Below, piece after piece: positions 28,299 to 63,110 of a stretch of 64,000 nt of DNA. The stretch comes from Bacteroidota bacterium (GTDB lineage: Bacteria > Bacteroidota > Bacteroidia > Palsa-965), in NCBI GenBank assembly GCA_016194975.1, contig JACQAM010000003.1, positions 248,001-312,000 of the forward strand. The letters run 5' to 3'. The position numbers and the translations under genes are program-made. Position 1 is the first letter of the stretch. Each line of letters starts with the position of its first letter. Below the pieces are notes generated by a model. The model was not told where the DNA came from. It saw only the letters and a list, made by a program, of their open reading frames with translations, and searched no databases.

Positions 28299-28408
28299 GC
28301 GTTGAAATTACAAAAGTCAATTCATAAAAAACCTTTTCACAGGATAATGAATTTCTCCGTTCCTGAATTATTTCAAATTCAAAGTGAAGAATCCTATAAT
28401 GAACTTTA

Positions 28409-28531
28409 GGGCATCTCTAAAAACACAGAAATGCAAGGCGGGCAAGTCTGAAAAACCGGAGTTTACTATTCGTAAATGAGGATTTTGAGGACGTAGCCCT
28501 ACGCAGCAGTTCGAAGTTATTAGAGATGCCC
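28409..28531. mobile_element. 123-bp MITE-like element, copy 1
   Basis: Non-coding element with terminal inverted repeats GGGCATCTCTAA (28409-28420) and TTAGAGATGCCC (28520-28531), 12 bp perfect and extending to 16 bp with one mismatch. It differs from the copy at 62988-63110 at three positions of 123. The flanks TTTA and TATA are at best a degraded target duplication. An internal TTTAC...GTAAA stem is present. It lies in the 284-base gap between the glycosyltransferase and the Kelch-like gene, ending 51 bases before the latter's ATG. Confidence 0.88.
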
Positions 28532-43537: not shown

Positions 43538-44542
43538 TCAATAAGTTCCCATTGGATTTTCAGCCGGCTGTACCCGTACTTTCATTCCTGCTTTCAATCG
43601 CACATATCCTTCCCATCCATTGTACTCACGCAATTCAGCGATTGTAATTCCGTAATGCTGCGCAATTTTCACCAGGTTGTCTCCCCGCACAACCATGTGA
43701 TATTCGAGTCCTGCCGGACGAACTGCGAATCCTTGTTTAGTGCGAACGAGAAAAAATTTTTCCGTGATAAGTTGGTGCGTTTTCAGATCGATGACATAAG
43801 CAGGATCAAATGCGACGCCGCGAAAACGCAATTCAAAATGCAAATGTGTTCCGGTGGAATGTCCGGTTGATCCACCAAGGCCGATGAGCTGTCCTGATGT
43901 AACAATGTCTCCCGGTTTTACTTTCAATCGCGCAAGATGGCCGTAAACAGTTTCAAGACCGTTGTAATGACGGATGATAATTACATTTCCATAGCCGCCA
44001 TTATTTCCTGCAAAACGAACCATTCCGCTGAATGCCGCACGCACCGTGTCTTTATAATTCAGATCAATATCTATTCCGCGATGATAAGCAGTATCGCGCC
44101 AACCGAATTCAGAAGTGATCGGGCCATTGTAAGGAAAATAAAATTCGCCGGAAACACCGGAAGAAATATCAAGCGCAGTGATCGTATCTGATTTGTAAAG
44201 ACTGTCACTGTATGGAAATAAATGTTTCGTATCCCAGCTTCCGTAAAAACGATTGGCAGGATAAAACGCAAATTCGGCCGGGTCATTTTTTACGAACGAA
44301 CTTTCAATATCGCGGATGCGTGACTGAATTACGCCGATCAGTTCTTTTTCATGCGAGTCGGCGTCCATGAGTGAATCCATCAGCAGGATAAGTTCGGGTT
44401 CACTCATCTCTTCCACTTCATGCGTAATGCGTGATGCGTTAGTGCTCGTGCAAAGCGTATCCCCGCCTGCGCGCAGTGTGTGCACGCCGAAAGTGAAGAA
44501 TATCACTGCCGCAAAAAGAATGTGCCTGAAAGGAGAAAACAA
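43538..44542 (-). CDS. M23 peptidase with C-terminal LysM
   Basis: A 334-residue exported murein peptidase. The N-terminus is hydrophobic (ILFAAVIFFTFGVHTLRA), followed by a helical segment with EEMSEPELILLMDSL. The M23 domain has AYHRGIDIDLN (zinc His and Asp), ETVYGHLARL and THLHFELRFRG (HxH). The LysM-like end reads YHMVVRGDNLVKIAQHYG. Layout and key motifs match the paralogue at 37820-39094, but it lacks the long Lys/Thr linker. All zinc ligands are present, so it should cleave peptidoglycan cross-links or stem peptides. The Nudix gene follows immediately. Confidence 0.9.
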   Translation of the reverse strand: MFSPFRHILFAAVIFFTFGVHTLRAGGDTLCTSTNASRITHEVEEMSEPELILLMDSLMDADSHEKELIGVIQSRIRDIESSFVKNDPAEFAFYPANRFYGSWDTKHLFPYSDSLYKSDTITALDISSGVSGEFYFPYNGPITSEFGWRDTAYHRGIDIDLNYKDTVRAAFSGMVRFAGNNGGYGNVIIIRHYNGLETVYGHLARLKVKPGDIVTSGQLIGLGGSTGHSTGTHLHFELRFRGVAFDPAYVIDLKTHQLITEKFFLVRTKQGFAVRPAGLEYHMVVRGDNLVKIAQHYGITIAELREYNGWEGYVRLKAGMKVRVQPAENPMGTY

Positions 44543-44612
44543 AATAAGTGTGAGATGTGTGTATTACTAAGGTAAGAAAAAGAAAGAAGGGAAATAGCAT
44601 AACAGAAATACC

Positions 44613-44740
44613 GGTAGTGGCTCAGTTTGCTCTTTTCCGATTCAACTTCGCGCCTTGGCGCCTTCGCGGTTCCTAAACCATTCTTTTATTAAACCGCAAA
44701 GACGCTAAGGCGCTAAGAATTTTCAAACTGACCCACTACC
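44613..44740. mobile_element. 128-bp MITE-like element with 8-bp target duplication
   Basis: Terminal inverted repeats GGTAGTGGCTCAGTTTG (44613-44629) and CAAACTGACCCACTACC (44724-44740) match over 17 bp with one mismatch. The element is bracketed by perfect direct repeats GAAATACC at 44605-44612 and 44741-44748. Inside, CGCGCCTTGGCGCCTTCGCGGTT and an inverse AACCGCAAAGACGCTAAGG pair imperfectly, so the whole element can fold. It has no coding capacity. It lies 46 bases past the 3' end of tRNA-Gly. Confidence 0.88.
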
Positions 44741-44786
44741 GAAATACCAAATTCTCAAAAGCCAAATTTCCTTGTAAGAAAACCGG

Positions 44787-44859
44787 AGCGGAAAACGGGG
44801 ATCGAACCCGCGACCTTCAGCTTGGGAAGCTGACGCTCTACCATCTGAGCTATTTCCGC
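44787..44859 (-). tRNA. tRNA-Gly (anticodon CCC)
   Basis: Cloverleaf on the minus strand. The acceptor arm is GCGGAAA (44859-44853) with TTTCCGC (44794-44788) and discriminator T. The D arm is GCTC...GAGC, the anticodon arm TCAGC-TTCCCAA-GCTGA with CCC at positions 34-36, and the T arm has GGTTCGATCCC. CCA is not encoded. Confidence 0.96.
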
Positions 44860-62979: not shown

Positions 62980-62987
62980 TTTTCTAA

Positions 62988-63110
62988 GGGCATCTCTAAA
63001 AACACAGAAATGCAAGGCGGGCAAGTCTGAAAAACCGGAATTTACTATTCGTAAATGAGGATTTTGAGGATGTAGCCCAACGCAGCAGTTCGAAGTTATT
63101 AGAGATGCCC
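62988..63110. mobile_element. 123-bp MITE-like element, copy 2, with CTAA duplication
   Basis: Terminal inverted repeats GGGCATCTCTAA and TTAGAGATGCCC bound a non-coding 123-base element differing from copy 1 (28409-28531) at three positions. It is flanked by direct repeats CTAA at 62984-62987 and 63111-63114, the 4-bp target duplication expected from YTAR-type insertion, as in IS5-group elements. The right-hand CTAA contains the TAG stop of the asparaginase gene (minus strand), so insertion happened exactly at the gene end without changing the protein. Confidence 0.92.

Follow-up and report, generated by a model that had tools for sequence, protein, structure and literature searches.

MITEs are non-autonomous transposons: short sequences without coding capacity, bounded by terminal inverted repeats (TIRs) that they have in common with an autonomous element, and present in multiple copies with target-site duplications of constant length. 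Many of them ordinarily arise as internally deleted transposon derivatives, and an autonomous parent in the same genome is common but not a strict requirement. Classical IS1 elements carry two ORFs joined by a -1 frameshift. To our knowledge, 8-bp duplications are not expected of REP elements, which are moved by HUH tyrosine enzymes.

Several described systems come close to the element reported here. In PMC6382973, an element with the TIR GGTGGTGTTTCAAAAAG... and 8-bp duplications is placed in the IS1 family because it resembles ISAba3; the ends of our MITE resemble this ISAba3-like TIR. The same text describes MITEAba12 of Acinetobacter (113 bp). Both MITEs are about 100 bp long, lack an ORF and have target duplications and TIRs with one mismatch, and in MITEAba12, as here, only the ends match the parent IS. 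MITEAba12 differs in its TIR, in its 9-bp duplications, in its AT-rich interior, where ours is an octamer palindrome with GC-rich arms, and in its co-resident parent, whereas a parent was undetected in our genome. PMC3196728 lists ISCaa1 as a one-ORF IS1 element, and PMC3718332 offers, in SM3A, a precedent for a MITE without a functional transposase. The REP and TIR repeats of tyrosine transposases (RAYT, TIRYT), as presented in PMC3733652, are short dispersed intergenic palindromes like the interior of our MITE, whereas the unit studied here has DDE-type ends and 8-bp duplications. Literature searches with the MITE end sequences found nothing relevant and a search with the octamer sequences found nothing; those on IS1-family MITEs, single-ORF IS1 elements and palindromes in Acidobacteria found only the precedents cited.

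A 128-bp MITE beside tRNA-Gly

The window, the whole 64-kb stretch of DNA that was analysed, belongs to a Bacteroidota genome of 4.1 Mb in 28 contigs (G000). Direct reading of the sequence reveals a gene-less 128-bp element with GAAATACC on each side (Table 1). It sits between tRNA-Gly (ccc) and a gene for an M23-type peptidase, named from a reading of the protein and not by family search, which starts near position 44542 on the minus strand. An earlier note on this DNA had proposed an inserted miniature element with an exact 8-bp duplication, an internal imperfect palindrome and one mismatch between the terminal arms, and each of these points was confirmed. The TIRs are 17 bp long (GGTAGTGGCTCAGTTTG / GGTAGTGGGTCAGTTTG) with one mismatch inside the arms, and positions 44612-44629 and 44724-44741 are complementary at 17 of 18 positions. 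With up to three mismatches allowed, the end pattern has just two sites in the window, both of them the ends of the element, against 0.34 expected. Folded as single-stranded RNA, the element reaches -54.7 kcal/mol (z = -9.0), a value equalled by none of 200 dinucleotide shuffles.

Table 1. Positions of the element, its parts and associated features (window coordinates, unless a genome and contig or a locus is given)
Feature	Position	Strand	Basis or remark
Left target-site duplication, 8 bp, GAAATACC	44605..44612		direct reading; matches right copy exactly
Left TIR, GGTAGTGGCTCAGTTTG	44613..44629	+	arm complementarity, end-pattern scan; end common to autonomous transposons
Whole MITE, 128 bp, without coding capacity	44613..44740		reading, BLAST copies, duplications, identical copies
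Internal palindrome, left arm, octamer-periodic (minus strand AACCGCGAAGGCGCCAAGGCGCGAAG)	44646..44671	-	reading, fold
Internal palindrome, right arm, AACCGCAAAGACGCTAAGGCGCTAAG	44692..44717	+	reading, fold; repeat also found elsewhere without these ends
Right TIR (minus strand GGTAGTGGGTCAGTTTG)	44724..44740	-	arm complementarity, end-pattern scan
Right target-site duplication, 8 bp, GAAATACC	44741..44748		direct reading; exact match to left copy
tRNA-Gly (ccc), neighbour only, not within element; 3' end 44 bp from element	44785..44859	-	tRNA search, Rfam
124-bp pair, first copy	28408..28531		
124-bp pair, second copy	62987..63110		
Octamers near GxxExxY genes	G016:C23:37614-38047; G018:C46:8899, C56:145810; L314, L320, L321		

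BLAST of a 144-bp query gave 56 matches in G000, counting fragments and both-strand matches of one copy, and the end pattern with at most two mismatches matched 74 times, against 5 for the reversed control. We read 53 loci, some being one copy repeated, and catalogued 32 two-ended elements, both ends lying within two mismatches of the pattern; worse ends or chance pairings had been dropped beforehand. An exact 8-bp duplication flanks 22 of the 32, and all 22 differ in sequence. The other ten comprise two copies with one mismatch in the duplication, two with two mismatches, two with a 7-bp duplication and four without any. The copies with 8-bp duplications for which the earlier note had asked are thus present, while the four without any count against the MITE reading. 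Together, the 56 matches and the 22 exact duplications of constant length imply that the arrangement of the 128-bp element is not due to chance, and the element is a MITE. Among the 24 copies of type A that were compared, six are identical along all 128 bp, which indicates a recent spread. Neither plasmids nor phages gave a BLAST match to the element.

Length variants of the MITE lie one octamer apart (120 vs 128 bp, 134 vs 142 bp). Two sister types with the same ends occur in G000. One, of 172-217 bp, has the A/T-richer octamers CACAAAGNCACAAAG in its core; its duplications are exact at L048, L056 and L219, and no exact 8-bp one is present at L218, L221, L222 and L223. The other, of 81 bp, is represented by L224 with an exact duplication. 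In copies of 134-150 bp (L014-L020, L022, L025, L026, L029), the left palindrome arm has partly given way to a different hairpin, near GCCTGCCCTGAAGAATTGAAGGGCGG; it looks as though palindromes could be exchanged within the element.

We sought the M23 neighbour in 11 genomes and tRNAs at six of these loci, our own included, without obtaining an empty site that could be aligned: tRNA-Gly was absent beside the M23 gene at all five other loci examined, and congeners were too diverged. In 4 of 28 copies (L001, L005, L015, L020), a mechanical ORF of 119-154 aa spans the site once the element is excised. Some contig ends of G000 break within MITE copies and overlap: C8 opens with the copy that ends C22 (L019), and C14 opens with the copy of C17 (L011). 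On the chromosome, C22 and C8 are thus probably neighbours, as are C17 and C14.

IS1-type transposons with the same ends

The exact pattern GGTAGTGNNTCAGTTTG was found at no fewer than 119 loci in GTDB genomes. Those listed belong to 16 named phyla, led by Acidobacteriota (36), Pseudomonadota (30) and Bacteroidota (11), and 29 of them hold 30 end pairs with 8-bp duplications (at most one mismatch), where slid controls (8 of 12,852) predict about 0.2. We sampled from the loci listed 14 pairs with exact 8-bp duplications, 0.9-4.4 kb apart. A single-ORF transposase of about 280 aa is present in 11 of these large elements and passenger genes in most, while L115, L193 and L204 have no intact transposase ORF. 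When aligned, the 11 transposases show 54-61% identity to the first, each being one uninterrupted ORF, and all 11 match PF03400 (DDE_Tnp_IS1) with E <= 0.01. Two scanned singly are above the Pfam cut-off for IS1 transposase; in NCBIfam, two transposases score 71.9 and 51.4 bits and do not reach the IS1 equivalog cut-off of 100 bits. For some relatives on plasmids the annotation reads 'IS1 family transposase'. Eight of the 14 transposons (L101, L093, L115, L169, L187, L193, L196, L204) also encode a small protein ending like LGRLGGLKGGKARA..KRAEIAKKAAxARW, which gave no Pfam family above cut-off in the two scanned.

Judged by sequence, the enzyme class behind the ends is IS1-type, in line with the earlier suggestion that the 8-bp duplication pointed to another transposase class than that of a second miniature family in the window. 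The presumed parent shares with IS1 the DDE transposase and has an 8-bp target duplication, within the 8 to 9 bp of that family. It differs in its single ORF, where IS1 has InsA and InsB joined by a frameshift, and in the larger, passenger-carrying form of its elements. Because of this uninterrupted ORF we describe it as IS1-type and do not file it as classical IS1.

The ends of the MITE are thus those of autonomous elements. One of these, a 3250-bp copy with perfect ends and the 8-bp duplication TCTTTGCG, lies in a genome of the same class (L207 in G093); L118, L187, L179 and others are found in other phyla. Multiple copies and autonomous relatives exclude the single copy without related ends that the earlier note had raised against its own reading. 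Among 118 genomes searched with a transposase profile, G093 gave one strong match (3.9e-141) and six genomes gave weak ones (E 1e-7 to 1e-3); neither G000 nor the six other genus members gave any. No autonomous parent was detected alongside the MITE in G000, whose assembly breaks at MITE repeats and may be missing a transposase copy. With an autonomous element in the same class and no transposase detectable in G000, it is probable that an IS1-type enzyme moved the MITE in trans and has since been lost or escaped assembly. It is ordinary in kind, a MITE with IS1-type ends, and forms a new family as far as our searches reach.

The octamer palindrome inside and outside the ends

The interior of the MITE is an 8-bp-periodic palindrome built of the octamers CGCAAAGA, CGCTAAGG and CGCTAAGA. 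G000 has 60 occurrences of the exact pattern CGCWAAGRCGCWAAG; counting G000, 31 of the 99 genomes searched contain it, and controls came out near zero. Twenty octamer stretches of G000, picked for their distance from catalogued elements, consisted of single arms, inverted pairs without GGTAGTG ends, and three (L276, L277 and L289, on C12 and C19) enclosed by a different inverted repeat, TAGAAGCYATCTCAAAATT...AATTTTGAGATRGCTTCTA. One repeat is therefore found within at least two unrelated end pairs in G000. BLAST of the element runs through the octamer core in 14 of 395 genomes of class relatives (E <= 1e-4, G000 included). The window alone could not show that this interior is a palindromic repeat in its own right, and a widespread one.

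We infer trans mobilisation of the MITE, loss or non-assembly of the transposase in G000, and capture of the repeat. Very probably, this is a MITE that an IS1-type DDE transposase recognises in trans by its ends, with 8-bp staggered insertion and a captured octamer palindrome as interior. The enzyme recognising the 17-bp ends would be of the single-ORF, roughly 280-aa kind known from the larger GGTAGTGNNTCAGTTTG-ended transposons, often with passenger genes; it would excise or copy the element, and insertion at an 8-bp staggered cut would produce the 8-bp duplication. The interior would be a captured inverted pair of the unrelated 8-bp-periodic repeat, which is found in many genomes of the class.

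The interior might instead be leftover sequence of one IS1-type transposon of which the MITE is an internally deleted derivative. Such is the usual origin of many MITEs, and a few bases beside the ends (GAAAATT) resemble the full transposons; we nevertheless consider it unlikely, since the palindrome that the interior matches is also found where these ends are absent, and recurs within the unrelated inverted repeat at L276, L277 and L289. Less probable still, and in our judgement quite improbable, is a hairpin that is transcribed, acts as terminator, mRNA stabiliser or small RNA and is under selection between tRNA-Gly and the M23 gene, with mobility ancient and incidental. The fold is very stable and the copies are intergenic, 26 of 28 examined for context overlapping no ORF of at least 100 aa; against this, the ORFs next to the 28 copies share no orientation, a search around the element for terminator-like or promoter-like sites found none and Rfam gave only the tRNA there, and the existence of identical copies whose duplications are still fresh speaks for transposition in the recent past.

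In G093, the autonomous element is inserted in an octamer palindrome and its target duplication is one octamer. The flanks of 14 other large elements offered no case as clear, and this gives only a hint of a target preference of the full transposon for palindromes. In several class relatives, octamer repeats lie about 25-290 bp from GxxExxY (TIGR04256) genes (Table 1), and in G016 they stand on both sides of the gene in inverted orientation. Octamers were found at 3 of 30 GxxExxY loci vs 0 of 50 other loci, a weak test that makes this link a lead only.

Other interiors between the same ends

Eleven genomes were taken from loci with short end pairs. In these chosen genomes the ends number 4 to 174 per genome, against 0 to 2 for controls. 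Of 30 loci read there, some being the two ends of one element, 18 hold short elements with duplications at one mismatch or fewer and 12 do not. The interiors are diverse. In Acidobacteriota, GGCTTTAGCC-type palindromes occupy the same ends in G395 and G396, GTCATCCTGAGCGAAGCGAAGGAT is found at L346 and GACAAACTTTATTAGTTTGTC at L333; in Bacteroidota, GTCATGTCGAACGAAGTGAGACATCT is found at L328 and octamers again at L330 and L341. Thirty places with GGGCTTTAGCCC were read in the two Acidobacteriota genomes: it lies between GGTAGTG ends at 2 of 15 in G396 and 9 of 15 in G395, and outside them at 13 and 6 places, respectively. G396 contains 31 ends vs 85 palindromes. Interior folding was assessed on 15 hand-picked MITEs with their 20-bp ends removed and 150 shuffles each. 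Eleven interiors out-folded nearly all shuffles (0 to 2 of 150 equal); four did not (the 81-bp type L224, L097, L100, L174), and a palindromic interior as a universal rule was rejected.

The least credible alternative, and a highly improbable one, is a REP/REPIN-like element. A RAYT-type tyrosine transposase would then have spread it, the palindrome would be its functional unit and the flanking GGTAGTG arms an ornament. The interior palindrome is indeed dispersed without ends in G000, its pattern is present in the 31 genomes, and RAYT-like genes flanked by palindromic TIR families are described in PMC3733652, but REP/REPIN units are GTAG- or CGTC-tagged hairpins with a RAYT and without target duplication, the copies here have strict ends and 8-bp duplications, which largely refute this reading of the 128-bp unit, and the same ends carry unrelated interiors.

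The occurrence of octamers in two unrelated ends, together with the many copies that lie outside such ends in G396, where ends are few, favours capture by the transposon over palindromes left by dead MITEs. What is unusual is one 17-bp end pattern in many phyla, repeatedly around palindromes that also live without these ends. It is conceivable, and we suggest it tentatively, that the GGTAGTGNNTCAGTTTG ends of one IS1-type lineage are a general vehicle across phyla that repeatedly encloses locally abundant palindromes. Such a vehicle would have enclosed the octamer repeats in Bacteroidota and the GGCTTTAGCC, GTCATCCTGAGCGAAGCGAAGGAT and GACAAACTTTATTAGTTTGTC repeats in Acidobacteriota; capture may have been easier where the transposon had inserted into a palindrome, of which G093 gives one instance. 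If so, part of the unexplained palindrome load in environmental bacteria would be dispersed by IS1-type transposition, and a comparison of the copies within the ends with those outside them could test where the palindromes originate. Our results link palindromic repeats between genes, for whose spread an explanation is lacking, to an ordinary DDE transposase acting on surrounding ends, and the 17-bp signature, searchable in any genome, points to the probable mobiliser of many gene-less repeats, a large class, in bacteria that are uncultured.

The second miniature family in the window, given as a 123-bp pair in the earlier note, is distinct from the MITE, as that note had held. Its two copies measure 124 bp, are 98% identical and have the ends GGGCATCTCTAA. 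The second copy is flanked by CTAA on both sides and the first by TTTA/TATA; the pair is probably a MITE of another transposase class with a 4-bp duplication. A further piece of its sequence lies at L280, beside an octamer repeat.
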